This document shows positions 1 through 12,448 of a stretch of DNA of 12,448 bases, piece after piece. The notes below the pieces were generated by a model that ran no database searches, was not told the origin of the DNA, and worked only from the letters and a program-made list of their open reading frames with translations. The DNA comes from Cytophagales bacterium (GTDB taxonomy: Bacteria; Bacteroidota; Bacteroidia; Cytophagales; Amoebophilaceae). The DNA is taken from assembly GCA_022360235.1 (NCBI GenBank), contig JAKSDE010000082.1:1-12448 (forward strand), read 5' to 3'. The translations under genes and the position numbers were made by a program. Position 1 is the stretch's first letter; each line of letters starts with the position of its first letter.

Positions 1-3000
1 AAGAACCTTACCATCCTAAATCGCCTCCAATACAATCTAATGCGATTGAGGATGACCTCATCGAAACGGCTAGGCAAGGTAACCTTCAAAGCGTAAAAGA
101 ATGCATAGAACAAGGCGCCAGTATTAATGTAAAAGATCAAGGTGGGAGGACACCTCTACATATAGCATCAATAAAAGGCCACTTACATGTTGTTAAATAT
201 TTAGTGGAAAAACAGGGCGTGAGCCTACAGGAAAAAGATCAAGAGGGGCGCTCTGCCGGCTATTGGGCCCTTTGGGCTGCTGCTAGGGGCGAGCACGAGG
301 CTCTGTTGGATAAACTCCTCGACAAGAGAGTGAACCTCCAGGAAAAAGATAAGTATGGTCTCTCTGCCGGCGCTCGTGCCCTTTTGGCCGCTGCTAGTAC
401 TGGGCAAGAGGCCCTTTTGGATAAACTCCTTGCCAAGGGCGTGAGCCTAGAGGAAAAAGATTGGAGGGATCGCTCTGCCGGCACTCGTGCCCTTTTAGCC
501 GCTGCTGGGGCTGGGAAAGCTGCCCTGTTGGATAAGCTCCTAGACAAAGGCGTGAGCCTAGAGGAAAAGGATGTAATTGGCCTCTCTGCTGGTGCCCGTA
601 CCCTTGCGGCCGCTATTGATTACAAGCAGTGGGCCCTTGTGGGTCAACTCCTTGCCAAGGGCGTGAGCCTTAAGGGAAAATGTAGAAATGGTTGCTCTGC
701 CGGCTACATGACCCTTCAGGCTGCTGTCCGAGCTAATCAGTGGGCCCTGGTGGATCAACTCCTCGCGCTTGGTGTGAGCCTAGAGGAAAAAGGTGGCCTT
801 TTTGGCTCTGCCGGCTACATGACCCTTCAGGCTGCTGCCAATACTAATCAGTGGGCCCTGTTGGATAAACTCCTCGACAAGGGCGTGAGCCTACAGGAAA
901 AAGATTATAGGGGTGTCTCTGCTGGCACTCGTGCCCTGGAGGCCGCTGCTAGGGCTGGGCAAGCGGCCCTGTTGGGTAAACTCTTTGAGAAGGGCGTGAG
1001 CCTACAGGAAAAAGGTCTTTGGGGTGTCTCTGCTGGCGCTCGTGCCCTTGAGGCCGCTGCAAAGGCTAAGCAGTGGGTCCTGTTGGATAAACTCCTCTCA
1101 CTGGGCGTGAGCCTACAGGAAGAAGATTATTGGGGTCTCTCTGCTGGCGCTCGTGCCCTCCAGGCTGCTGCCAATGCTCAACAGTGGGCCCTGCTGGATA
1201 AACTCCTTGCCAAGGGCGTGAGCCTACAGGAAAAAGGTCTTTGGGGTCTCTCTGCCGGCGCTCGTGCCCTTGAGGCCGCTGCCGCCGCTCAGCAGTGGGT
1301 CCTTGTGGATAAAATTCTTGACAAAATGAACCTACAGGAAAAAGAGCAAGATGGTCGCTCTGCCGGCGTTCGTGCCCTTTTTGACGCTGCCGCTGCTCAG
1401 CAGTGGGTCCTTGTGGATAAAATTCTTGACAAAATGAACCTACAGGAAACAGATCAAGAGGGCCGCTCTGCCGGCTATGCGGTCCTCGTGGCCGCTGCTG
1501 AGGCTGGACAAGAGGCCCTGGTGGATAAACTTCTAGGCAAAGTGAGCCTAAAGGAAAAAGATTATTGGGATCTCTCTGCCGGTGCTGAAGCCCTCGCAGC
1601 CGCTGCTAGTGCTGGGCACGAGGCCCTGGTGGATGAACTCATTTCACACGGCGTGAGCCTACAGGAAGAAGGTTGGTGGGGTTTCTCTGCCGGCGCTCGT
1701 GCCCTCGAGGCTGCTGCTAGTTCTGGCCAAGAGGCCCTGTTGGATAAACTCCTCTCACTGGGCGTGAGCCTACAGGAAAAAGATTGGCGGGGTCTCTCTG
1801 CTGGCGCTCGTGCCCTCCAGGCTGCTACTAGTTCTGGCCAGGAGGCCCTGTTGGATAAACTCCTCGACAAGGGCGTGAGCCTACAGGAAAAAGATAAAAA
1901 GGGTCGCTCTGCTGGTGCTCGTGCCCTCCAGGCTGCTGCCAATGCTAAACAGTGGGCCCTGTTGGATAAACTCCTCGACAAGGGCGTGAGCCTAAAGGAA
2001 GAATATGATGGTCGCTCTGTCGGTGCTAAAGCCCTCGTGGCCGCTGCCGAGGTCGGACAAGAGACACTGGTGGATAAACTCATTTCACGCGGCGCGAATC
2101 TACAGGAAAAAGATGAAGGTCGCTCTGCTGGCTATAGGACCCTTGTGGCCGTTGCTGAGGCCGGGCAAGAGGCCCTGGTGGATAAACTCATTTCACGCGG
2201 CGTGAGCCTACAGGAAAAAGATGGCCTTTTTGGTTCCTCCGCCGGCGCTCGTGCCCTTCGGGCCGCTGCCACCGCTAATCAGTGGGCCCTTGTGGATAAA
2301 CTCCTTAAGAAGGGCGTGAGCCTACAGGAAAAAGATATAATTGGTCACTCTTTTGGTGACAGAGCCGTTGAGGAAGCTACAGCAACCGGAAAACTGGAAG
2401 CAATTGACCTAGCATTGAGCAAAGAAGAAGGGAATGATGGCTATTTTTGTGACTGTGATGGTATTACCCTAGTAGCAGCAGCCCATACTGGACGCTTAGA
2501 AAAATTAGTTAAGCATCTAAATTTAAACCTAGCACGTGTAGAACAAATAATCCCAATTGCTGCTCAATATGAAAATTTGGAGGCAATAGCATTGCTTATA
2601 GAAAAAGGCTACCCTGAATCTTGGCAATTATTAGCTGAACATGGCTATCTAGCTATATTGGAAAGACTTGTAAGTGGCCGCGTCGAGATGTCAGGTTTTC
2701 CTCTTATGAATCTTTTAGAATGGGCTACTGAGCATGAAAAGGAGAGAATCATAGAAATACTCGCACCATTCTTAGAAGATGCTTATGACAATCGTAGTAA
2801 TTTACCTCGTGACTTATTAAGTTCAGTCTACTCTTCTGACAGAGAAACAATTGACCCATCTCCCCCTTCGGTCAGCTCAGCTTTCTCATCAGAACGATCA
2901 GCAATAACCAATATAGCTAGCTATTCATTAAGTTCAGTCTACTCTTCTGACAGAGAAATAATTGACCCATCTCCTCCTTCGGTCAGCTCAGCATTTTCAG

Positions 3001-3374
3001 AGCCACCATCCACTGCTGCTAATGCTACCTATAGCGATCAATCTTCTAAAGAATATTTTTTACACAAAGCAGTGGAGCGGAGCAAAAAAGACGCAGTGGC
3101 TCAATGGATAAAATCTGGGGCTAATGTTAATTCGCCAGATAGTCAAGGAGACACGCCCCTGCACAAGGCAGTAAGACAAGATGATGAAGCGCTTGTCACC
3201 ATCCTTTTGAACGCTCCTGGAATCAAGCTCAAGGTAAAAAATAATCAAGGGAAAAAGCCGGTGGATATAGCCCGAGGAAGAATAAAAAACCTTATTAAAA
3301 GCAGGGATAATCCAGGTAATAGACGAGGATTCCTGGGGAGATTAAGACTAGGAGCTATTCAAGAGCAAGAGTAA
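1..3374 (+). CDS. Giant ankyrin-type lipoprotein with 19 variant 37-residue repeats (5' partial)
   Basis: The frame is open from the left edge (first full codon at 3, 1123 residues visible). A GTG at 204 is internal and is not the start. The first visible residues (EPYHPKSPPIQSNAIEDDL) match residues 25 onward of the paralogue at 9617, so only about 24 residues, the lipoprotein signal peptide and its Cys, lie outside. Visible order: N-terminal ankyrin repeats at about 12-76 (RTPLHIA motif near 46); 19 tandem 37-residue ankyrin-like repeats at 82-780; a conserved helical module at 781-930 with an odd FCDCDG motif; a Ser-rich linker at 939-1000 holding an internal duplication; terminal ankyrin repeats at about 1016-1100 (DTPLHKAV). 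The C-terminal third is close to that of the gene at 7229. Ankyrin repeats bind proteins, so a surface or secreted host-contact role is inferred, not shown. The gene at 3477 follows after 102 bases, perhaps in one operon. Confidence 0.9.
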   Translation, partial: EPYHPKSPPIQSNAIEDDLIETARQGNLQSVKECIEQGASINVKDQGGRTPLHIASIKGHLHVVKYLVEKQGVSLQEKDQEGRSAGYWALWAAARGEHEALLDKLLDKRVNLQEKDKYGLSAGARALLAAASTGQEALLDKLLAKGVSLEEKDWRDRSAGTRALLAAAGAGKAALLDKLLDKGVSLEEKDVIGLSAGARTLAAAIDYKQWALVGQLLAKGVSLKGKCRNGCSAGYMTLQAAVRANQWALVDQLLALGVSLEEKGGLFGSAGYMTLQAAANTNQWALLDKLLDKGVSLQEKDYRGVSAGTRALEAAARAGQAALLGKLFEKGVSLQEKGLWGVSAGARALEAAAKAKQWVLLDKLLSLGVSLQEEDYWGLSAGARALQAAANAQQWALLDKLLAKGVSLQEKGLWGLSAGARALEAAAAAQQWVLVDKILDKMNLQEKEQDGRSAGVRALFDAAAAQQWVLVDKILDKMNLQETDQEGRSAGYAVLVAAAEAGQEALVDKLLGKVSLKEKDYWDLSAGAEALAAAASAGHEALVDELISHGVSLQEEGWWGFSAGARALEAAASSGQEALLDKLLSLGVSLQEKDWRGLSAGARALQAATSSGQEALLDKLLDKGVSLQEKDKKGRSAGARALQAAANAKQWALLDKLLDKGVSLKEEYDGRSVGAKALVAAAEVGQETLVDKLISRGANLQEKDEGRSAGYRTLVAVAEAGQEALVDKLISRGVSLQEKDGLFGSSAGARALRAAATANQWALVDKLLKKGVSLQEKDIIGHSFGDRAVEEATATGKLEAIDLALSKEEGNDGYFCDCDGITLVAAAHTGRLEKLVKHLNLNLARVEQIIPIAAQYENLEAIALLIEKGYPESWQLLAEHGYLAILERLVSGRVEMSGFPLMNLLEWATEHEKERIIEILAPFLEDAYDNRSNLPRDLLSSVYSSDRETIDPSPPSVSSAFSSERSAITNIASYSLSSVYSSDREIIDPSPPSVSSAFSEPPSTAANATYSDQSSKEYFLHKAVERSKKDAVAQWIKSGANVNSPDSQGDTPLHKAVRQDDEALVTILLNAPGIKLKVKNNQGKKPVDIARGRIKNLIKSRDNPGNRRGFLGRLRLGAIQEQE
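246..2342 (+). repeat. Coding tandem array: 19 copies of a ~111-bp (37-residue) ankyrin-like repeat
   Basis: Nineteen consecutive units average 36.8 residues. Each opens with GxSAGARAL, continues through an Ala-rich helix and the LLDKLL helix, and closes with KGVSLQEKD plus two or three variable residues. The end (K-G-V-S-L-x-E-K-D) matches the LLxxGAxxNxxD part of an ankyrin repeat, but the TPLH turn is replaced by SAGARAL and the unit is about four residues longer than the canonical 33. Two subtypes alternate irregularly: those with QWALLDK and those with GQEALVDK. Most variation sits in the last two or three residues and just after the Ala-rich helix. The array is much richer in G+C than its flanks: 39 of 60 bases at 1681-1740, against 23 of 60 at 2581-2640. 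Confidence 0.92.
2817..2998 (+). repeat. Tandem 111-bp duplication inside the Ser-rich linker
   Basis: The segment starting at 2817 recurs at 2928, exactly 111 bases later. It is nearly identical for about 70 bases, encoding LSSVYSSDRE(T/I)IDPSPPSVSSAFS twice in frame. The related gene at 7229 has a single, diverged Ser-rich linker here without the duplication, so the duplication is probably recent and specific to this gene. The linker lies between the conserved helical module and the terminal ankyrin repeats. Confidence 0.85.
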
Positions 3375-3476
3375 AAAGAAGCTATATGGATAAAAAATAC
3401 AAAGAAAGAGAAGCTACAAAATTATTTATACAATGATCCTATGGTAACCTTAAAAACAGCTATATTTATGAGAGAC

Positions 3477-5405
3477 ATGAAGAAAATTTTGACCTTATTA
3501 TTGGCGATGAGTTGTAGCACAAAAGAACCGTTGATGCTACCTGCAACTACCTTAGAACCGTTGATGATGCCTGCAACAACTTCAAGCTCTACTAATGCAG
3601 CTTTTCAAGCGGCCCTAGAAGAAAATAAGCGAGAGGTTGTTGAAAAAATGCTCGCTGAAAATCCAGCTTTAATCGATTCTAGCTTACAAGCCACTTCGAA
3701 AGGCAGGAATCCATTCAAGATGAAAGCTTTACATGTAGCCGCTAAGCGGGGTCATGTAAATTTAATAGACCTGTTGCTCAACAGAGGCGCGTGCGTCGAT
3801 GAACAAGATGAGCGAGGTCATACGCCCCTACAATATGCAGCCTACAAAAGAAAGATAGAAGCCACACGTAGACTGTTGCAAGCAGGAGCTAATATTAATA
3901 TACACCAAGACAATAAAGACAAGTTAACCCCTCTTCAGGAGGCATACACCGTCTATAAAGGCAATCGTGCGCACTGGGAAGTATTCACCTTACTTTTAGA
4001 GGAAGATGCAGACCCTAATATTACCGATAAGTATGGCAGAACGCTGCTACACTGGGCTGCTGAAGATGGGCAAGAAGCAGTTGTACACTACTTAGTAAAA
4101 AGTGGAGCAGATGTTACATGCACAGATGTCAATAGACAAACTGCTGCAGAGATAGCAGCCCATAAGGGGTACGTAACTATCCAGCGATTCTTAGGTGACC
4201 CTATTCATACTATTAGACATAGGGTGGTAGGTATGTTAAGAAAGGCTACTGCAGACCCCTCCAATCTTTCAGATGAAATAGACTGGATACTCAGCCAGTT
4301 ACGTAGACAACCAGCGGGTGTGAACAGTAAGCTAGATGAAGATGATCATACATTGTTGCACCTAGTAATAGCTTTCGAAGGACTCGCTGAGAATATAAAA
4401 ATAAAAATTGTAAAGAAATTGATTGATGCAGGAGCCAATCCTAACGCCATGGATAGCCAAGAGAGATCAACCCCATTGCATTTAGCGGTTAAAAAAGGTT
4501 TGATCAACTTAGTAAGGTACCTAGTAGAAAATGTAGACGTTTTTATTGATGAGAAAGATAGACAAGGCCATGATCCCCTATTTTATGCAAGAGCCCATCA
4601 GCATGAGCAAATCAGGGGGATATTAGAGGCAGAACAGGAGAGACGCCAAAACTCAGGAGGTGCTAACAATAAAATGCTTGTTTTGATTAATATGCTTGAG
4701 AGAGATGATTATACGCTATTACGTGAAATGTTAAGCAATAATCAAATACGGATTGATGAAATCATAGAAAAAGACAGACTTAGTAGGCCCTTATTACATT
4801 GGACCTGCTGTGAAGGCAAAGCCAAGCTTGTGGCAGAGTTATTATACGGGAGGGCGGAACAGCGTGTAGGAAGCATTTACGACTGGCCAGGGGCAGAGCG
4901 AGCCGCCGTCAGTAGTGATCTAGTAGTAGGTATAGAAGCCCTAGACCCAAACGGTTTTTCCCCGCTCCACTATGCTGCAAGAGGAGGCCATCTAGAAATT
5001 GTAAAAATGCTGGTAGAGTATAAGGAGATCAAAGAAGCAAATAGCGTTGCACCAGGGCATTCCCAAAGGTATACAGATTATGTAGAAAGCATCGTGAACT
5101 ATGTCAACCAGCCCACCCCGCCAGAGCTCGGTGGTCAGACAGCGCTACAGCTGGCAAAAGCCAATAAGAAAGATCAGGTAAAAGGATACTTAAAAGGTAT
5201 CAAAAAAGGGCTCTTATATTATTGTTTCAAGGGTGTTCGCTACAATCCTTTTCACAAGGTAGGCATTCCCACCCCTGCAGGCGAAGCTTCGATAGAAACA
5301 GATAGAGGAGCAGATACGATGCCAGGAGGAAGGCTATTTAATAAGTATAGGATTTGGAATAACATAAGACCGGAGCGTGCACAGCCGCCAGCAACAGGGA
5401 GCTAA
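3477..5405 (+). CDS. Ankyrin-repeat lipoprotein (second gene of the unit)
   Basis: The frame is open from ATG 3441, but I choose ATG 3477 (642 aa). It begins a lipoprotein signal peptide, MKKILTLLLAMSC, with Cys13 as the lipidated residue. The same MKKIL start is kept in the decayed copy at 8838. ATG 3468 is also possible. The lipobox (A-M-S-C) is not canonical. After a linker with a duplicated EPLM(L/M)PATT motif (17-35), canonical ankyrin repeats run at about 42-240 (ALHVAAKRGH, HTPLQYAA, RTLLHWAAEDGQ). A charged spacer follows at 240-285, then more repeats at about 287-390 (STPLHLAVKKG), 410-460 and 490-520 (SPLHYAARGGH). The last 90 residues are basic and not recognised. It lies 102 bases behind the first gene on the same strand, so co-transcription is likely. 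The partner is unknown. Protein binding at the cell surface or in the host is inferred from the repeat type. Confidence 0.87.
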   Translation: MKKILTLLLAMSCSTKEPLMLPATTLEPLMMPATTSSSTNAAFQAALEENKREVVEKMLAENPALIDSSLQATSKGRNPFKMKALHVAAKRGHVNLIDLLLNRGACVDEQDERGHTPLQYAAYKRKIEATRRLLQAGANINIHQDNKDKLTPLQEAYTVYKGNRAHWEVFTLLLEEDADPNITDKYGRTLLHWAAEDGQEAVVHYLVKSGADVTCTDVNRQTAAEIAAHKGYVTIQRFLGDPIHTIRHRVVGMLRKATADPSNLSDEIDWILSQLRRQPAGVNSKLDEDDHTLLHLVIAFEGLAENIKIKIVKKLIDAGANPNAMDSQERSTPLHLAVKKGLINLVRYLVENVDVFIDEKDRQGHDPLFYARAHQHEQIRGILEAEQERRQNSGGANNKMLVLINMLERDDYTLLREMLSNNQIRIDEIIEKDRLSRPLLHWTCCEGKAKLVAELLYGRAEQRVGSIYDWPGAERAAVSSDLVVGIEALDPNGFSPLHYAARGGHLEIVKMLVEYKEIKEANSVAPGHSQRYTDYVESIVNYVNQPTPPELGGQTALQLAKANKKDQVKGYLKGIKKGLLYYCFKGVRYNPFHKVGIPTPAGEASIETDRGADTMPGGRLFNKYRIWNNIRPERAQPPATGS

Positions 5406-5506
5406 AAACAGGAGTACCCACCCAACTGTGTTCTTTGAAGCTAAGTGCCAAGGGGGGCTACTAGTATTTTGTAACAAATAAGACGGATAGCGCCCTGTAA
5501 AAGCAT

Positions 5507-5623
5507 GACTATGCAGCCACTCTACGAAATACAAAAACCGGTTGTTTAGGGGAGAGGCTCTATAATGCGAGGTAAGCAGTACAGGGTATGCTTATTTTTT
5601 TGAAACCTAAAAGAGTTATAGCT
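5507..5623 (+). promoter_or_regulatory. Conserved upstream block and putative promoter of the 5624 gene
   Basis: This block aligns with the DNA upstream of the genes at 7229 and 9617, although intergenic DNA elsewhere in the cluster has diverged. It contains TATAAT at 5561-5566, 58 bases before the ATG, with CGGTTG 16 bases upstream of it. It also has a T-run followed by GAAACC near the start codon, recalling the Bacteroidota -7 box TAnnTTTG, and AAAGAG 8 bases before the ATG as a weak ribosome site. Which promoter type is used cannot be decided from sequence. The rest of the gap (5406-5506) shows nothing recognisable. Confidence 0.4.
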
Positions 5624-6925
5624 ATGAATCGACGAATCACCCATATTTTACTCATTTTTGTTTACAGCTTACTGGGTTGTACCAAATATTATAAAGAATC
5701 TTGCCATCCTGAACCGCTTCTAATACAATCTAACACGATTGAGGATGACCTCATCGAAGCGGCTAGGCAGGGTGACCTTCAAAGGGTAGTAAGATGTATA
5801 GAACAAGGCGCTGATATTAATGTTGTAAAAGCTCAGGATGGGAAAAGTCCATTATATTTGGCAACTCTCTATAATCACCCAGAAGTGGTTGAGGAGCTAC
5901 TAAATCGTGGTGCAAATGACGCTGAAGCCCTCATAGTCGCTGCTGATACTAAGCAGTGGTCCCTAGTAGCTCAACTCCTTGAGGGGGACATGAGCCTCGA
6001 GGAAAGATATAGCTTTTGTTGGGGTTTTTTCGGGTACTCTTTCGGCGCTTATGCCCTTTTGGCCGCTGTCAATGCTAAGCAATGGGTTCTAGTGAATAAA
6101 CTCCTTGCCAAGGACGTGAACCTCCAGGAAAGTTCTGGCTTGGGGGTTTGGGGGAACTCTATCGGTGTTCATGTCCTTTTGGCTGCTGCCGATGCTAAGC
6201 AGTGGGCCCTGGTGGGTAAACTCCTTGATGAGGACGTGAACCTTAAGGAAAAATGTAGAAACAGTTGCTCTGCTGGTGCTGAAGCCTTCCTAGCCGCTGC
6301 AGCGGCCGGGCAAGAAGCCCTAGTGGATACATTCCTTGCCAAGAACGTGGACCTTCTCAAGGAAGAGTACAAAGATGGTCGCTCTGTCGGTGGTGAAGCC
6401 CTCATAGTCGCTGCTATGTGCGAGCAGGAACCCTTAGTGAATAAACTCCTTGCCAAGGACGTGAGCCTCCAGGAAAGAAATAAAAAGGGTCACTCTGTCG
6501 GTGATGAAGCCCTCCTAGCTGCTGCAGCGGCCGGGCAAGAAGCCCTAGTGGATACACTCCTTGCCAAGGGCGTGAATCTCCAGAAAGAAGGGGAAGATGA
6601 TGGCCGTTCTGTCGGTGCTGCAGCCCTCCTAGCCGCTGCAGCGGCCGGGCAAGAAGCCTTAGTGGATATACTCCTTAACAAAGGTGTGGACCTTAAGGAA
6701 AAAAATAAATATGGTTACTCTGCTGGTGCTGACGCCCTTTGGGAAGCTGTCGGTGCTAATCGGTGGGTCCTGGTGGGTCAACTCCTTGACAAAGACGTGA
6801 ACCTTAAGGAAAAATATGGAAATGGTCGCTCTGTCGGCGTTTATGTCCTCGAGGCTGCTAGAGCGGCTGGGCAAACAGCCCTGGTGGATAAACTCCTTGA
6901 CGAGGGCGTAATCCCAGATAGATAA
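5624..6925 (+). CDS. Ankyrin-type lipoprotein, truncated family member with ~9 variant repeats
   Basis: The frame is open from ATG 5588, but the start chosen is ATG 5624, because MNRRITH begins the three visible family genes that are complete at the 5' end and the upstream block is conserved up to it (433 aa). Residues 1-19 are a lipoprotein signal peptide with a canonical LLGC lipobox (Cys19). Ankyrin repeats cover about 39-98 (KSPLYLATLYNHPEVV). One partial and eight full 37-residue variant repeats then run from about 99 to the end. Here the SAG motif is often SVG or SFG, and KGV is often KDV. The protein stops at GVIPDR where the paralogues at 1 and 7229 continue into a C-terminal module. 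A roughly 10-base deletion after 6910 shifts the frame straight into TAA, and the lost module survives as a relic just downstream. The shorter protein may still be made, since its frame is intact. Confidence 0.88.
   Translation: MNRRITHILLIFVYSLLGCTKYYKESCHPEPLLIQSNTIEDDLIEAARQGDLQRVVRCIEQGADINVVKAQDGKSPLYLATLYNHPEVVEELLNRGANDAEALIVAADTKQWSLVAQLLEGDMSLEERYSFCWGFFGYSFGAYALLAAVNAKQWVLVNKLLAKDVNLQESSGLGVWGNSIGVHVLLAAADAKQWALVGKLLDEDVNLKEKCRNSCSAGAEAFLAAAAAGQEALVDTFLAKNVDLLKEEYKDGRSVGGEALIVAAMCEQEPLVNKLLAKDVSLQERNKKGHSVGDEALLAAAAAGQEALVDTLLAKGVNLQKEGEDDGRSVGAAALLAAAAAGQEALVDILLNKGVDLKEKNKYGYSAGADALWEAVGANRWVLVGQLLDKDVNLKEKYGNGRSVGVYVLEAARAAGQTALVDKLLDEGVIPDR
6032..6922 (+). repeat. Coding tandem array: 8 copies of the 37-residue ankyrin-like repeat
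   Basis: Eight units start with G-x-S-x-G (positions 6032 onward) and end with LLxKxVxLxE(K/R). Units 3, 5 and 6 share an almost identical stretch around AAAAAGQEAL at about 6297, 6522 and 6636, which looks like recent homogenisation. The same alanine run creates the perfect palindrome GCCGCTGCAGCGGC at 6293-6306 and 6632-6645. The unit around 6241-6273 (KCRN then CSAG) resembles one at 668-700 in the first gene. Confidence 0.88.
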
Positions 6926-7011
6926 AGCGCTCTTTTAATGAGAGAACCGTTGGCAGCTACAGCAACTAGAAAACTAGAGGAAAGTGGCCTAGCACTGCAA
7001 GCAGGAACCCC
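6913..7011 (+). pseudogene. Relic of the C-terminal module of the ankyrin lipoprotein family
   Basis: Directly after the stop of the preceding gene, the DNA still aligns with the start of the C-terminal module at 2343 and 7819. In a shifted frame it reads RSFNERTV, against RSFGERAV in the gene at 7229. It has an approximately 10-base deletion at the junction, a further 2-base loss and in-frame stops. Similarity ends near 7011. It is not translated with the gene upstream, apart from the few codons before the TAA. Confidence 0.75.
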
Positions 7012-7012
7012 T

Positions 7013-7080
7013 GATGTAGTATAAACACTCCTATGACGTGTGCTCTCTTTATAAATTAGGAATTGTAAAATAGTTTGTTT
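7013..7080 (+). repeat. 68-bp dispersed intergenic repeat, copy 1
   Basis: It matches 9243-9310 at 64 of 68 positions by eye, without gaps. Both copies lie upstream of a family gene and run into the ATAAATTAGG segment that also forms part of the 107-bp tandem repeat. It probably arose when the gene-plus-spacer unit was duplicated. No coding potential. Confidence 0.8.
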
Positions 7081-7112
7081 AAATTTCCATTTGTTTAAGC
7101 TACTAAAAGTAA

Positions 7113-7228
7113 GACTATACAGTTACTCCAAGAAATACACAAACTGGCTGTTTAGTGGAGAGGCTTTATAATGCGAGGTAAGCAATACATGGTATGCTTA
7201 ATTTTTTGAAACCTAAAGAGTTATAGCT
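7113..7228 (+). promoter_or_regulatory. Conserved upstream block and putative promoter of the 7229 gene
   Basis: This block aligns with 5507-5623. It has TGGCTG at 7145-7150, a 16-base spacer and TATAAT at 7167-7172, 57 bases before the ATG. A T-run ending in TTGAAACC lies close to the start, and AAAGAG lies 8 bases before it. In the gap 6926-7228 the other items are the C-module relic and the 68-bp repeat. Confidence 0.42.
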
Positions 7229-8743
7229 ATGAATCGACGAATCACCCATATTTTACTTATTTTTTCTTTCAGCTTACTAGGGTGTACCAAATATCATACA
7301 GAACCCTACTATCCTAAATCGTTTCCAATACAATCCAATACGATTGAGGATGACCTCATCAAAGCGGCTAGGGAGGGTAACCTTCAAAAGGTAAAAGAAT
7401 GCACAGAACAAGGCGCCAGTATTAATGTAGAAGATCAAGGTGGGAGGACACCACTGCATATAGCATCAGCAAAAGGCCACTTACATGTTGTTCAATATTT
7501 AGTGGAAGAGCAAAATGATAATATAAAAAAAAGAACCAAAGATGGTTGGGCTCCCTTGCACATGGCAGCTGCAGGAGGTCATATAGCTATAGTGCAATAT
7601 TATGTAGCTCATGGTGTAGATATCAATACTCGAACTCAAGCAGGTAGAAATCCATTATATTTGGCAGCTCTCTATAATCACCCAGAATTGGTTAAGGAGC
7701 TACTAAATCTTGGTGCAGATGGCGCTAACGCCCTCATGGTTGCTGCCGCTGCTAAGCAATGGGCCCTAGTGGATCAACTCCTTGGCAAGGGCGTGAGCCT
7801 AGAGGAAAAAGATGAAAAGGGTCGCTCTTTTGGTGAAAGAGCCGTTGAGGAAGCTACAGCAACTGGAAAACTGGAAGCAATTGACCTAGCATTGAGCAAA
7901 GAAGAAGGGAGTGATGGCTATTTTTGTGATTGTGATGGCATCACCCTGGTAGCGGCGGCCCATACTGGACGCTTAGAAAAATTAGTCAAGCATCTAAATT
8001 TAAACCTAGCACGTGTAGAACAAATAATCCCTATTGCTGCTCAATATGAAAGTGTGGAGGCAATAGCATTGCTTATAAAAGAAGGACACCCTGAAGCTTG
8101 GCAATTATTAGCTGAACATGGCTATATAGCTATAGTGGAAAAACTTTTAAGTAGCCGCGTCGAGATGTCAAGCTTTCCTCTTATGAATCTTTTAGAATGG
8201 GCCACTGCGCATGAAAAGGAGAGAATTATAGAAATACTCGCACCACGCTTGGAAGATGCTCATGACAATCCAGGATTAAGTGATCTATCTCGTCCCCGTT
8301 CAGATTTTTCATTAGAACTATCAGAAATACTCAGTATACCTAGCTATTCAGTAAGTTCTGGAATAGCAATAAGTTACCCACGTGCTTCGCTTAGTTCAGC
8401 ATTTTTAGACACCCCATCCGAGGCTGTTAATACCCCCTATAGCGATCAATCTCCTAAAGAACATCTTTTACACCAAGCAGTGGAGGGGGGGAAAACAGCC
8501 TCAGTGGCAAAATGGATAGAATTGGGGGCTAATGTTAATTCACAAGATAGTCTAGGAGACACGCCTCTGCACAAGGCAGTAAGACAAAATAACGAAACGC
8601 TCGTCACCATCCTTTTAAATGCTCCTGGAATCAACCTCAAGGTAAAAAATAACCAAGGGAAAAAGCCAGTGGATATAGCTCCAAGAAAAATTAAAAACCT
8701 TATCAGAAGCAGTAATATCCGGGTAATAGACGAGGATTCCTAG
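7229..8743 (+). CDS. Ankyrin-repeat lipoprotein with a single variant repeat and the full C-terminal module
   Basis: 504 aa from the conserved MNRRITH start. Signal peptide 1-19 with LLGC lipobox (Cys19). Ankyrin repeats at about 39-68, 71-103 (RTPLHIASAKGH), 105-137 (WAPLHMAAAGGH) and 139-165 (NPLYLAALYNHPELV). One 37-residue variant repeat, about 165-197 (AKQWALVDQLL, then KGVSLEEKD). Conserved helical module at about 198-345 with the FCDCDG motif, a Ser-rich linker at about 350-410, and terminal ankyrin repeats at about 415-495 (DTPLHKAV). It is almost the same protein as the first gene with the 19-repeat array reduced to one unit, and may represent the unexpanded form. A one-base difference near 8715 puts the last residues in another frame than the first gene, so the tail (IRVIDEDS) differs and is shorter. 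A decayed copy of the 3477-type gene follows 94 bases later. Host-protein binding is inferred from the family only. Confidence 0.9.
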   Translation: MNRRITHILLIFSFSLLGCTKYHTEPYYPKSFPIQSNTIEDDLIKAAREGNLQKVKECTEQGASINVEDQGGRTPLHIASAKGHLHVVQYLVEEQNDNIKKRTKDGWAPLHMAAAGGHIAIVQYYVAHGVDINTRTQAGRNPLYLAALYNHPELVKELLNLGADGANALMVAAAAKQWALVDQLLGKGVSLEEKDEKGRSFGERAVEEATATGKLEAIDLALSKEEGSDGYFCDCDGITLVAAAHTGRLEKLVKHLNLNLARVEQIIPIAAQYESVEAIALLIKEGHPEAWQLLAEHGYIAIVEKLLSSRVEMSSFPLMNLLEWATAHEKERIIEILAPRLEDAHDNPGLSDLSRPRSDFSLELSEILSIPSYSVSSGIAISYPRASLSSAFLDTPSEAVNTPYSDQSPKEHLLHQAVEGGKTASVAKWIELGANVNSQDSLGDTPLHKAVRQNNETLVTILLNAPGINLKVKNNQGKKPVDIAPRKIKNLIRSSNIRVIDEDS

Positions 8744-8837
8744 AGAGATTAGGAATTATTCGAGAGTAAAAAGTTATAAAGTCTGTCTATACAATGATCA
8801 TCTAGTAACCTTAAAAACAGCTATGCTTATGAAAGCC

Positions 8838-9123
8838 ATGAAGAAAATTTTGAACTTATTATTGGTGGTGAGTTGTACCACAAAAAACCATTGATGCTGC
8901 CTGCAACAACCTCAAGCCCTACTAATGAAACTTTTCAAGCGGCCCTAGAAGAAAATAAGCTAGAGGTTGTTGCAAGAATGCTCGATGAAAATCCAGCTTT
9001 AATCAATGGTAGCCTACAAGCCACTTCGAAAAGCAGGAATCCATTCAAGACAAAGCTTTACATGTAGCCGCTAAGCGGGGTCATGTAAATCTAGTTGATA
9101 GTCATTTTAACCCTTCAATATGA
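8838..9123 (+). pseudogene. Frameshifted, truncated copy of the 3477-type ankyrin lipoprotein
   Basis: It aligns with the start of the gene at 3477, including the MKKIL signal peptide (here MKKILNLLLVVSC). A one-base deletion in the AAAAA run near 8886 sends the frame to TGA at 8892. The original frame is then open through FQAALEENKLEVV until a second one-base deletion near 9050 leads to TAG at 9065. After that the third segment reads HVAAKRGHVNLVD before similarity is lost near 9100, with a stop at 9121. About 80% of the gene is missing. Its place behind the gene at 7229 copies the arrangement of the first two genes, so it came from duplication of the two-gene unit. A short peptide from the first frame could in principle be secreted, but this looks like decay. 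Confidence 0.88.
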
Positions 9124-9242
9124 TTTTTTTTATTTAACATGGTATTACCCTACAGACAGTAATTTATGGAATACAGCTTGTCAAAAGATAGTCAGCCTGG
9201 AACAATCACAAGGCATTCAGCTAGATCAACCTTACAACCGTT

Positions 9243-9310
9243 GATGTAGTATAAACATTCCTATAACGTGTGCCCTCTTTATAAATTAGGAATTGTAAAA
9301 TAGTTCGTTT
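9243..9310 (+). repeat. 68-bp dispersed intergenic repeat, copy 2
   Basis: Ungapped match to 7013-7080 with four differences. It overlaps the start of the 107-bp tandem repeat. The stretch just before it, 9124-9242, shows no gene, relic or hairpin that I can recognise. Confidence 0.8.
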
Positions 9311-9574
9311 ATCTTGCGCGACCAGGCAGTTAGTCCACGAAATACGAAAACTGGCTGTTTAGTGGAGGGGCCTTATAATGCTATTTTATAAATTAGGAAT
9401 TGTAAAATAGTTCGTTTAAATTGCATGACTGAGCAGTTACTCCACGAAATACACAAACTGGCTGTTTAATGGAGAGGCTTTATAATGCTATTTTATAAAT
9501 TAGGAATTGTAAAATAGTTCGTTTAGCTTACGCGACCAAACAGTTAGTCTACGAAATACGAAAACTGGCTGTTT
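9281..9574 (+). repeat. 107-bp tandem repeat, 2.7 copies, carrying promoter-like and hairpin elements
   Basis: Units begin at 9281, 9388 and 9495, exactly 107 bases apart; the third stops after 80 bases at 9574. Each unit contains ATAAATTAGGAATTGTAAAA, then a segment ending in AACTGGCTGTTT. In the first two units TTATAATG follows, at about 9373-9380 and 9479-9486. The second part of the unit is the same DNA as the upstream block of the family genes, so the putative promoter region has been multiplied. Two units (9381-9410 and 9488-9517) form an AT-rich hairpin with arms CTATTTTA and TAAAATAG, extended inward by AATT pairs. Confidence 0.88.
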
Positions 9575-9616
9575 GAACAGTATATGCTTATTTTTGAAAC
9601 CTAAAGAGTTATAGCT
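9536..9616 (+). promoter_or_regulatory. Upstream block and putative promoter of the 9617 gene
   Basis: The block is shortened compared with those at 5507 and 7113: the stretch with TATAAT is missing next to the gene and is found only in the repeat units upstream. TATTTTTG at 9589-9596 fits the Bacteroidota -7 consensus TAnnTTTG exactly, but the nearest TTTG upstream (9572-9575) is closer than the usual spacing, so the assignment is weak. AAAGAG lies 8 bases before the ATG. Confidence 0.35.
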
Positions 9617-10264
9617 ATGAATCGACGAATCACCCATATTTTACTCATTTTTGTTTACTGCTTACTGGGATGTACCAAATATTATAAAGAACCTTACCAT
9701 CCTAAATTGCCTCCAATACAATCTAATGCGATTGAGGATGATCTCCTCAAAGCGGCTAGGGAGGGTAACCTTGAAGGTGTAACAGAATGTATAAAACAAG
9801 GTGCTAATATTCAGGAAAAAGATGAATATGGTCGCTCTGCCGGTGCTCGTGCCCTTGAGGCCGCTGTAGCGGCTGGAAACAGGGAACTTGTGGATCAACT
9901 CCTCTCGCTTGGCGTGAGCCTAAGTGAAATAGATAAAAATGGTGACTCTGCCGGCGTTCATGCCCTTAAGGCCGCTGCAGCGGCTGGAAACGAGGAGCTT
10001 GTGGAACTATTCATCTCACTTTTTGTGGTAAAGTATAAGTATGGTAGGGACGATATCTACCGCGAGGCCCTTGAGGCCGCTGCAGAGGCTAACCAGGCGA
10101 AGGTGGCGGATCAAATCTTTCGTAGGATAACATTAGGGGGAAAAAGTAGTCTTCTTTTTGGACTTAGACTCCCTTCACTCCTCGCAGAATTATCAGGTAA
10201 AAATCCCGATCAAATGCCCACTGTGTGTGAATGGTTCAGACTCTTGAGGTCGGGTCGGCTGTGA
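9617..10264 (+). CDS. Short ankyrin-type lipoprotein, probably a truncated family member
   Basis: 215 aa from the conserved MNRRITH start. Signal peptide 1-19 with LLGC lipobox (Cys19). One ankyrin repeat at about 39-70 (AIEDDLLKAAREGNLEGV) is followed by two clear 37-residue variant repeats at 71-107 (GRSAGARALEAA) and 108-144 (GDSAGVHALKAA), and a third degraded one from about 145 (EALEAAAEANQAKVADQI). In these repeats the second helix reads GN(R/E)ELV instead of QWALL or GQEAL. The last 45 residues (from about ITLGGKSSLLFG) match nothing else in the window. A relic of the family C-terminal module stands 450 bases downstream, so the gene may once have continued into it before an insertion or deletion. 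Whether the tail is functional or a by-product of truncation is unclear. Confidence 0.83.
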   Translation: MNRRITHILLIFVYCLLGCTKYYKEPYHPKLPPIQSNAIEDDLLKAAREGNLEGVTECIKQGANIQEKDEYGRSAGARALEAAVAAGNRELVDQLLSLGVSLSEIDKNGDSAGVHALKAAAAAGNEELVELFISLFVVKYKYGRDDIYREALEAAAEANQAKVADQIFRRITLGGKSSLLFGLRLPSLLAELSGKNPDQMPTVCEWFRLLRSGRL

Positions 10265-10325
10265 ATCTAGATAGTCGATCCTTAAGAACGCTCGATGGTT
10301 CTATTTTTGATGTGTTTTGCAACAG

Positions 10326-10347
10326 GCTAAGTTCGTCATTTAACGTG
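10326..10347 (+). repeat. 22-bp imperfect direct repeat, left copy
   Basis: It begins GCTAAG and contains TCGTCATTT. It matches 10659-10680 at 19 of 22 positions. The two copies bracket about 310 bases that hold both hairpins, as the flanks of an inserted or duplicated element might. Confidence 0.5.
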
Positions 10348-10367
10348 CTTACCCCTTACTTTTTGCT

Positions 10368-10414
10368 CCCCTGCCGGGGGCCCTACTTTTTTGTCTGCCA
10401 CACAAAAAAGTAGG
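10368..10414 (+). terminator. Paired hairpins, possible terminator or REP-like element
   Basis: A small GC hairpin (CCCC-TGCC-GGGG, 10368-10379) is followed by a T-run. That run is part of a perfect 13-bp inverted repeat, CCTACTTTTTTGT at 10382-10394 and its complement at 10402-10414, with a 7-base loop. It lies about 100 bases past the 9617 gene and could end its transcript. The strong hairpin is not followed by a T-run on the plus strand; on the minus strand it is not followed by one either. A repeat-element origin is therefore at least as likely. Confidence 0.4.
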
Positions 10415-10431
10415 CAAAAAAATCACCGCTG

Positions 10432-10552
10432 TTGAAAAATGGCTAAAATTCTTGCGCTACGTGCTAAAAATTGGCCAACTCGTCGCTGCGCTTCTCAGAC
10501 ACGCCAATTTTTGGCCGCACTTCGCTTAGAATTTCTTAACACCATTTTTCAA
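10432..10552. repeat. 121-bp imperfect palindrome (REP/MITE-like)
   Basis: Nested complementary arms share one centre near 10490: TTGAAAAATGG (10432-10442) with CCATTTTTCAA (10542-10552), AAATTCT (10446-10452) with AGAATTT (10528-10534), GTGC (10461-10464) with GCAC (10517-10520), and AAAAATTGGC (10466-10475) with GCCAATTTTT (10503-10512). As RNA it would fold into one long stem with internal loops. There is no open frame with transposase features. It resembles the hairpin repeats scattered in Bacteroidota intergenic DNA, but I cannot assign a named family. Confidence 0.72.
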
Positions 10553-10658
10553 AGGCGGATCTCTATGCTTGATAGGGCCTGCTATTTTTTGCAAGGTTTT
10601 GGCGTGCTATAAAGGTTTTTCTTGCCAATATTGCTACGCTATAGATGAGTTTTTGTGA

Positions 10659-10680
10659 GCTAAGATCGTCATTTTAAGTG
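10659..10680 (+). repeat. 22-bp imperfect direct repeat, right copy
   Basis: It matches 10326-10347 with three differences, all single-base substitutions. See the left copy for its possible meaning. Confidence 0.5.
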
Positions 10681-10716
10681 TAAAAATACAGTATTTATAC
10701 TTGTTAAGGGTCGACT

Positions 10717-10827
10717 AGATAGATAAAGCGCTCTTTGGGTGAGAGACCGTTGAGGGTAGCTATAGCAACTAGAAAACTAGAGGAAATTAAACTAGCATTG
10801 AGCAAACAGGAACCCCATGCGCTGTAA
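10717..10827 (+). pseudogene. Second relic of the family C-terminal module
   Basis: From 10729 the frame reads RSLGERPLRVAIATRKLEEI and then KLALSKQEP, ending at TAA 10825. It aligns with the start of the C-terminal module in the genes at 1 and 7229 (RSFGERAV, LALSKEE). A TAG at 10720 closes the frame upstream and there is no start codon. The joint at its left end (GATAGATAAAGCGCTCTTT) is the same as at 6917-6935, so both relics descend from one already broken copy. Only about 30 codons remain. Confidence 0.75.
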
Positions 10828-10987: not shown

Positions 10988-11061
10988 TCCTCCTTAGCTC
11001 AGTTGGTTAGAGCATCTGACTGTTAATCAGAGGGTCGCTGGTTCGAGCCCAGCAGGAGGAG
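10988..11061 (+). tRNA. tRNA-Asn (anticodon GTT)
   Basis: A complete 74-base cloverleaf: acceptor TCCTCCT paired with AGGAGGA, D stem GCTC/GAGC, anticodon stem TCTGA/TCAGA around loop CTGTTAA (anticodon GTT, reading AAC and AAT), T stem GCTGG/CCAGC with loop TTCGAGC, and discriminator G. The CCA end is not encoded (CAT follows), so it must be added after transcription. It marks the edge of the ankyrin cluster and faces the end of dnaK. Confidence 0.97.
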
Positions 11062-11133
11062 CATAAGGCCAATGCACTGATTTCATCGGCTGTTTGTAGG
11101 AATTTTCAATACTGAGAGATAGAAGTATAGCTA

Positions 11134-11206: not shown

Positions 11207-12448
11207 TTATTTGTCTACTTCTTCATAGTCAACATCTGACACATCTCCCTCATGATTATTGCTACCCGTATCAGCCGTACTTTGTTGCTGTGCGTCATTA
11301 CCCTGAGCAGAAGTAGCTCGCTGTGCAGCTTGATACATTTCTTCCACGAAAGGGGGAAAAATTTTATTTATTGCTTCCATGGCCTTATCAATGCGCTCTA
11401 TATCTTTAGCTTCGTAGGCCTTTTTCAAATCAGCCAAAGCATTTTCTATAGTTTTCTTTTTATCCTCGGAGAGCTTATCTCCCGATTCTTTTAATTTTTT
11501 TTCTGTTTGGAAGATTAAGGAGTCGGCCTCGTTAAGCTTATCTATTTTCTTTCTTTCTTCTTTATCTGCTTCGGCGTTTGCTTCGGCTTCTTTTTTCATT
11601 CTTTTGATTTCTTCTTCTGTCAAACCAGAAGAGGCTTCAATACGAATTTTTTGCTCTTTACCCGTTCCTTTATCTTTCGCAGACACGTTAAGAATACCAT
11701 TCGCATCGATATCAAAAGTCACCTCAATTTGTGGTACGCCTCTTGGGGCTGCTGGGATATTATCTAGATGAAATTTACCGATCGTACGATTATCTTTTGC
11801 CCTAGGCCTTTCTCCTTGTAGTACGTGGATTTCTACTGAAGTCTGGTTGTCTGTGGCTGTAGAGAATATCTGTGACTTTTCCGCTGGGATAGTTGTATTG
11901 GCTTCGATCAGTTTAGTAGACACCCCCCCCATTGTTTCGATACCCAGCGAGAGCGGAGTTACATCGAGGAGTAGTATATCTTTCACCTCGCTAGTGAGTA
12001 TACCTCCTTGGATAGCAGCGCCTATGGCCACCACCTCATCAGGGTTGACGCCTTTAGATGGTTTCTTCCCAAAGAATTTTTCTACTTCTGCTTGAATTCT
12101 AGGGATTCTTGTTGAGCCCCCTACCAAGATTACTTCATTAATGTCAGCAGCATCAAGGGATGCATCTTGCAATGCCTTTTCGCAAGGTGCTAAGGTCCTC
12201 TTGATCAAATCATCTACCAGCTGCTCAAATTTTGCTCTGGTAAGCTTTTTCACAAGGTGTTTAGGTATCCCGTCTACGGCTATAATGTAAGGGAGATTGA
12301 TTTCTGTAGTGGTTGAACTAGAGAGTTCAATTTTAGCTTTTTCTGCTGCCTCTTTGAGTCGTTGCAGCGCTGTAGGGTCTTGCTTCAGATTAGTTCCTTC
12401 CTCTTGCTGGAAAGTATCGGCAAGCCAGTCAATGATCTTTTGGTCAAA
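11207..12448 (-). CDS. dnaK: Molecular chaperone DnaK (Hsp70), C-terminal 413 residues; 5' end off the window
   Basis: DnaK is the cytoplasmic ATP-dependent Hsp70 chaperone that folds client proteins with DnaJ and GrpE. The frame is open to the right edge. The first visible residues, FDQKIIDWL, correspond to about residue 231 of E. coli DnaK, so the N-terminal third is missing; a GTG at 12253 is internal. Visible parts: end of the ATPase domain with [14 protein letters not shown] and [13 protein letters not shown], the interdomain linker LLLDV (about 159-163) in [14 protein letters not shown], the substrate-binding domain ([19 protein letters not shown]), the charged helical lid, a Gln/Ala-rich tail and the typical end DYEEVDK. 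All look intact. It is transcribed towards tRNA-Asn and ends at its own terminator. Base use is that of an ordinary housekeeping gene, unlike the repeat-rich genes to the left. Confidence 0.98.

Follow-up and report, generated by a model that had tools for sequence, protein, structure and literature searches.

According to passages of one study, the ankyrin-repeat (ANK) genes of Wolbachia vary in repeat number between strains (Siozios et al. 2013, PMC3563639), and the same passages describe exact direct repeats of 26 and 30 bp flanking the gains and losses of units in one such gene, together with chimeric units, intragenic recombination, and the disruption of some copies by frameshift and IS (PMC3563639). 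Sizeable ANK repertoires are likewise on record for Amoebophilus asiaticus (54), Cardinium cCpun (46) and Cardinium cEper1 (19), and a DUF1703 family of Cardinium cCpun recombines among its paralogues as judged by the pairwise homoplasy index (PHI) and other tests; the relevant sections of these reports contain no description of ANK repeat-unit shuffling for either genus (PMC8831229, PMC6387759, PMC3486910). DARPins, as outlined in excerpts from two accounts, combine a constant framework with variation at the positions that contact the target (PMC8229355, PMC6590788). Large ANK repertoires mark intracellular bacteria, and the origin of new binding surfaces among them is mostly inferred.

The window analysed here is an entire contig (C322, 12,448 bp) of an Amoebophilaceae-like draft genome of 1.87 Mb in 528 contigs, and carries five ANK genes (g1 to g5) in head-to-tail order. 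The interpretation that we favour, with a probability of about 0.6, is that of a tandemly duplicated ANK lipoprotein family in which lineage-specific arrays of a 37-residue unit (37-mer) were grown, shrunk and remixed by recombination, some copies having decayed. The recombining of symbiont ANK genes, as in Wolbachia, is known; what sets the present family apart is its lineage-specific 37-residue unit, and a search of the open-licence PMC literature returned, among the titles and abstract openings listed, no description of such a unit or of such a locus. The features of the window are as follows.

3..3374, forward strand: g1, paralogue of the putative ANK lipoprotein family, its 5' end beyond the contig edge (ORF, Pfam ankyrin, 111-bp tandem array)
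214..2337, forward strand: array of g1, 19 units of 37 residues (36–38), GC 56.7%, GC3 52.5% (Tandem Repeats Finder, unit cutting, AlphaFold2)
2338..3374, forward strand: C-terminal module (C-module) of g1, degenerate ankyrins and a Ser/Pro-rich linker (82% DNA identity to g4 at 7820–8754)
3441..5405, forward strand: g2, a different ANK protein of 654 aa with a lipobox-like start by eye (ORF, Pfam)
5624..6925, forward strand: g3, paralogue with 8–9 units, its stop inside a frame-shifted C-module remnant (ORF, unit count, remnant comparison)
6926..7009, forward strand: C-module remnant 3' of g3 (repeat family D10, module DNA match at 6930–6997)
7229..8743, forward strand: g4, a paralogue that combines ordinary ankyrins with a single 37-mer (7721–7822) and a full C-module (ORF, Pfam, protein match, model)
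about 8788..9090, forward strand: truncated second copy of the g2 start (repeat families D14, 91%, and D15, 89%)
9278..9598, forward strand: three 107-bp tandem copies of an upstream segment ahead of g5 (tandem-repeat finding, family D12)
9617..10264, forward strand: g5, the shortest paralogue, 2–3 units (ORF, Pfam, unit count)
10272..10718, no strand assigned: MITE-like element of dispersed type, lying between g5 and the C-module remnant 3' of that gene (genome search, copy comparison)
10729..10812, forward strand: C-module remnant 3' of g5 (family D10, module DNA match at 10731–10812)
10988..11062: tRNA-Asn
11207..12448, minus strand: end of dnaK (ORF, Pfam)

The presence of the dnaK end and of the tRNA-Asn on the same contig indicates that the cluster is probably chromosomal. 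Each of the five candidate ANK ORFs that were scanned matched Pfam Ank_2 above cut-off; g1, g3, g4 and g5 are mutual paralogues, each passing the cut-off of one or more Pfam ankyrin models, and correspond to the four ANK paralogues claimed in an earlier note on this DNA, which overlooked both g2, an ANK gene of another kind, and the truncated copy of its start. The repeat counts of about 19, 9, 1 and 2–3 given in that note were reproduced as 19, 8–9, 1 and 2–3, comprising 19 regular units plus one degenerate in g1, eight plus one in g3, one in g4, and two plus one in g5, the degenerate units having been judged by eye. A signal peptide common to three paralogues was also confirmed, the relevant 27 bases of DNA being exact in g3, g4 and g5, and these three copies, all within the window, were the only ones in the whole assembly when up to three mismatches were allowed; g1 stands outside this count, its 5' end being off the contig. 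The contig opens inside g1 just past the expected signal peptide, perhaps because an almost identical start in another copy broke the assembly at that point. An upstream segment of its own precedes each of g3, g4 and g5, and a search located this DNA nowhere but in the window. Exact segments of 43–56 bp are common to the gene starts, the longest exact runs (55–56 bp) being those shared among gene starts and upstream DNA. The 107-bp upstream segment is triplicated before g5, not before g3 or g4.

The similarity between g1 and g4 continues past the genes, via intergenic DNA, into the g2 start, an extension which, together with the truncated g2 copy, indicates that g1 and g2 were duplicated as a pair. 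The C-modules of these two paralogues, previously described as near-identical, proved to be considerably more diverged, with 82% DNA identity over the match, 76% protein identity over g4 residues 163–495, a dN of 0.143 and a dS of 0.268; the DNA identity is unevenly distributed (91–93% over 2316–2815, 71–88% over 2816–3415). The proposed difference in C-module presence holds in so far as the module is full in g1 and g4 and in neither g3 nor g5, but remnants persist behind both of the latter genes. Those remnants share a derived stretch, AGATAGATAAAGCGCTCTTT, within which the g3 stop falls and of which the first part is lacking in the intact g4 module. Such a common derived stretch indicates that the module was lost by decay, most simply before the split of g3 and g5, in their common ancestor, so that the absence of the module from these genes represents decay and no variation mechanism. 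The MITE-like element that now separates g5 from its remnant is some 447 bp long and is bounded by 14-bp terminal inverted repeats (TAGTCGAYCCTTAA / TTAAGGGTCGACTA); with 10265–10730 as the query, at least 63 matches were recorded in the same genome, counting that of the window itself (of 160 candidates, 40 were scored), and the copy at 10272–10718 has a 39-bp extra stretch absent from two other copies.

Tandem Repeats Finder reported the g1 array as 111 bp × 19.2 copies at 214–2337, with a score of 1364 that sets it apart from chance. The unit comprises 37 residues, four above the canonical ankyrin, and has SAGxxALxAA in place of TPLHxAA; it thus departs from both the 33-residue period and the helix-A TPLH of the canonical repeat, the N-terminal ankyrins of g4 being ordinary. 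An AlphaFold2 model of g1 units 1–8 (pLDDT 88.9) predicted an ankyrin-type helix-loop-helix-hairpin solenoid in which helix A spans 11–12 residues, as against 7–8 for the ordinary ankyrins modelled in g4, the g4 model itself being weak overall (pLDDT 65.4); as modelled, the unit would thus be an ankyrin repeat whose helix A is extended by about one turn. Ankyrin-repeat chains, RNase L and tankyrase among them, make up the 50 PDB matches listed for the array. Query TM values of 0.35–0.69 denote a poor full-length superposition, and the best local structural fit was to 4o60_A (target TM 0.79, 3.1 Å over 244 columns).

Among the genomes searched, strong matches to the unit are restricted to its own genome. 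Within the family the unit profile was matched by 16 of 21 genomes at E ≤ 0.001, the best match outside its own genome being 3.9e-13 among the matches listed; most of the outside matches listed covered 190–207 bp for some 67–73 model positions, which is the ordinary 33-residue register, and the candidate 37-mers of other family members were rejected on the grounds that these matches were weaker and mostly in that register. At the level of the order, a five-row profile was matched by 20 of 390 sampled genomes (best outside its own genome, 1.6e-8). Three protein searches of a large database, in each of which only the roughly 8,000 candidates with most shared words were scored, returned at least 106 proteins for g4, of which one was close (P0001, 99% over 80% of g4), at least 210 for g3, headed by P0001 with all others far behind, and for g1 residues 60–1120 a single match, P0107, a gene on contig C33 of the same genome. 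Genome-contig scans with g4 and with the five-row unit alignment yielded no confirmed relative. The g1 units 1–8 returned nothing from a viral contig scan or from plasmid and phage tblastn, and a plasmid or phage origin of the unit is consequently unsupported. When Tandem Repeats Finder was run on 92 loci, 111-bp arrays were confined to those of the same genome; two outside loci with arrays of 108-bp period were rejected as 37-mer relatives, one (L038) because it is presumably Sel1-like, as judged by eye from its motif, and the other (L086) because of the TALH-type ankyrins inside it.

Elsewhere in the same genome the unit is carried by other backbones: it follows ordinary ankyrins in P0107, it partly fills another gene of C33, and a gene on contig C383 has a 33-residue array that changes abruptly to 37-mers. 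At this last switch C383 shares with C33 a 214-bp tract of 98.1% identity (L066:1–214, L067:2974–3187), which may reflect a recent exchange or, given its position at the end of C33, an assembly effect. A 39-bp (13-residue) tandem repeat with copies 89–95% alike (L066:5080–5258 and L067:5412–5579) also reaches the ends of both contigs, its C383 stretch falling within a gene with a P0107-like start. The GC3 of the arrays was 52.5% in g1, 48.4% in g3 and 54.1% in array C33a, so that the arrays at 214–2337 and 5908–6925 and that of C33a exceed the remainder of their own or sister genes by some 20 points, GC3 being near 30% in g4, in the C-module of g1 and in the front of C33a; array C33b gave 41.7 vs 40.6 in its front part. 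The ordinary arrays of the genome that were usable, four in number, differed by −0.9 to +8.4 points from the remainder of their ORF piece, and the 33-residue array on C383 was likewise rich in GC3 (60.3%).

For the study of recombination 53 units were cut out (g1 19, g3 8, g5 2, g4 1, C33a 8, C33b 8, C383 7) under a length limit of 30–42 residues that excluded one 43-residue C33b unit, and PHI was computed at three window sizes with the shuffling of whole codons as the control. The 19 units of g1 gave p = 0.001 at each window size (control p = 0.034), those of g3 gave 0.029, 0.011 and 0.003 (control 0.028), and all 53 together gave 0.090, 0.005 and 0.001 (control 0.045); for C33a (0.008, 0.035, 0.020) and for C33b plus C383 (0.001, 0.005, 0.005) the respective controls of 0.31 and 0.12 were not significant. 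In g1 the similarity of the last third of a unit was tied more closely to that of the opening third of its successor (r = 0.436, p = 0.001) than thirds inside one unit were to one another (0.288–0.335), a cross-boundary linkage that the same test did not detect in g3 or C33a. The g1 array, with a mean unit identity of 72%, contains 30 pairs of exact repeats of at least 25 bp, the longest of 55 bp, and for 40 of the 53 units the nearest relative lies inside the same array. A candidate exchange between g1 unit 4 and g3 was discarded as too weak (76% vs 74% within g1). The suggestion that the family varies by recombination is hence supported as regards past events among units, by the g1 and g3 PHI values with their controls, the g1 linkage, the exact repeats, and the occurrence of the unit on other backbones. 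The searches made retrieved a second allele for g4 only, namely P0001, which shows four differences in about 400 residues and a single unit as in g4, and none for g1, g3 or g5. The last 18 residues of P0001 are identical to an ORF on the minus strand of the window (8446–8640), a fold-back that ends its public contig.

Taken over their whole length the units gave dN/dS values of 0.52–0.83. At three loop-tip positions the ratio of pN to overall pS was 1.47–2.01 in the four array groups tested separately, being highest in g1 (2.01, bootstrap 1.80–2.27), for which the JC-corrected ratio of tip dN to overall dS was 3.65. Amino-acid change in g1 was also greater at six DARPin-equivalent positions than at the other 31 (p = 0.0024), positions 2, 3, 5, 13, 14 and 33 being taken as the contact positions. 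Ordinary 33-residue ANK controls yielded tip ratios of 0.90–2.30 (nine usable of 15 loci, with at least five usable units), so that the tip effect is a shared one and no proof of a special system. Amino-acid change within the repeats is thus concentrated at loop-tip and contact positions, but not as a peculiarity of this family, ordinary ANK arrays behaving alike.

A signal peptide of the form MNRRITHILLIF...LLGC was assigned to g3, g4 and g5 by a sequence rule only, the start of g1 being off the contig and that of g2 judged by eye, and on this basis the paralogues are probably lipid-anchored in the envelope or membrane. In the contigs retrieved from this genome the rule identified a lipobox in 19 of 21 ANK ORFs (≥200 aa, 5' end in view) and in 20 of 95 others, counts which are descriptive, as the rule was loosened after a first, stricter version (16 of 22 ANK ORFs of ≥120 aa), and in which a crude ANK rule placed g4 among the other ORFs and missed g2; no lipobox was in view for the 37-mer gene on C383. 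A family relative whose genome is a single contig of 1,884,364 bp gave 4 of 12 ANK ORFs, most of the others having by eye a Cys after a hydrophobic stretch. That most of the ANK proteins checked here are lipoprotein-like suggests that not all bacterial ANK proteins are injected effectors. Surface-exposed lipoproteins of Bacteroidetes are marked, according to part of one report, by an acidic export signal after the lipid cysteine such as C-X-K-(D/E)2-X (PMC5080379). No such signal follows the cysteine of g3 and g5 (CTKYYKE) or g4 (CTKYHTE), although the motif comes from Bacteroidetes outside the Amoebophilaceae, and the surface location proposed earlier is on this account left without support. 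An adjacent acidic pair occurred in one of 19 ANK and one of 20 other lipobox candidates, and the mean net charge over positions +2 to +6 after the Cys was +2.32 in the 19 ANK candidates vs +1.55 in the 20 others. Most ANK proteins of this genome (L101–L130) have a lipobox and then basic C-x-K-R-K-like residues, the opposite of the acidic signal.

The favoured interpretation has as its observed basis the duplications, the strong matches in its own genome only among those searched, the recombination signal, the contact-position change and the predicted ankyrin fold. As envisaged, an ankyrin lipoprotein family, probably chromosomal, would have expanded by tandem duplication around a central array built from the lineage-specific unit; recombination between misaligned copies, unconfined by unit boundaries, would have lengthened, shortened and remixed the arrays, the 37-mer would also have landed on further ANK proteins that this genome encodes, and some copies would afterwards have decayed via frameshift or truncation. 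We further infer anchoring in the envelope by lipid, continuing change, and a binding role in which surface length would depend on the number of units and the choice of ligand on the contact residues. The cluster may thereby supply the bacterium with new binding surfaces, and should unit numbers be seen to shift, it would offer a directly testable system for the renewal of host-interaction surfaces by a symbiont. A bolder version, in which the array serves as a natural recombination-driven generator of binders with a constant framework, diversified contacts, remixing in any phase and transfer between envelope proteins, is regarded as improbable; if true, a symbiont could renew its binding specificities against changing host molecules, in parallel to repeat-based adaptive receptors.

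Several of the above results weigh against the favoured interpretation, namely the non-significant codon-shuffle controls of C33a and of C33b with C383, the missing cross-boundary linkage in g3 and C33a, the similar tip ratios of ordinary 33-residue arrays, the overall unit dN/dS below 1, the unchanged unit number of the sole second allele, the C383 gene with no lipobox in view, and the lack of an acidic surface signal. Some of them would suit an ancient tandem duplication after which the copies drifted apart by ordinary mutation and degenerated, leaving arrays that are now stable and subject to no ongoing diversification. The paralogues are 78–92% alike and not near-identical, two of the genes and the g2 copy are truncated, P0001 has the layout of g4, and neighbouring units are barely closer than distant ones (76.4% at lag 1 vs 69.8–73.3%), all of which such a history would lead one to expect; the PHI and cross-boundary linkage results in g1, and the persistence there of exact repeats of 40–55 bp despite the 72% mean unit identity, are difficult to reconcile with it, and we consider it a possible but rather unlikely account.

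The vlsE and pilE systems are silent-cassette systems, and antigenic variation of that type, in which truncated copies at the locus act as conversion donors that overwrite a single expressed gene, would agree with truncated copies adjoining intact ones and with gene starts that share segments of 43–56 bp. It is nevertheless the least plausible of the schemes, given that g3, g4 and g5 are all preceded by upstream segments of their own and there is thus no single expression site in view. Scarcely more credible is an effect of draft assembly, whereby the unit numbers or the C33/C383 mosaic would stem from the short-read or mixed-strain assembly of a repetitive genome: although the 528 contigs, the start of the window in g1 at the expected onset of the shared signal-peptide region, the 98.1% tract common to C383 and the end of C33, and the fold-back of the P0001 contig are all suggestive of such an effect, open frames span all the arrays, exact repeats within g1 do not exceed 55 bp, and the g4 layout is backed by P0001.

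The recombining, decaying tandem family preferred here can finally be set beside the systems described at the outset. As in the Wolbachia genes covered by the passages cited, the ANK arrays of a symbiont genome contain exact direct repeats within the array, bear signs of intragenic recombination, and include frameshifted copies; unlike Wolbachia, for which variation between strains has been demonstrated, the present case concerns a single genome, a 37-residue unit, paralogues gathered in one cluster, and proteins that are mostly lipoprotein-like. Amoebophilus asiaticus and Cardinium belong to the same bacterial family and have, in the sections cited, large ANK repertoires of their own, but among the matches listed for the 21 family genomes no 37-residue unit was found in the relatives searched. 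With DARPins, which are among the best structural matches of the array and are known here from the excerpts cited, it shares a steady framework and varied contact positions, while differing from them as a natural array of 37 and not 33 residues, a putative binder with no known target.
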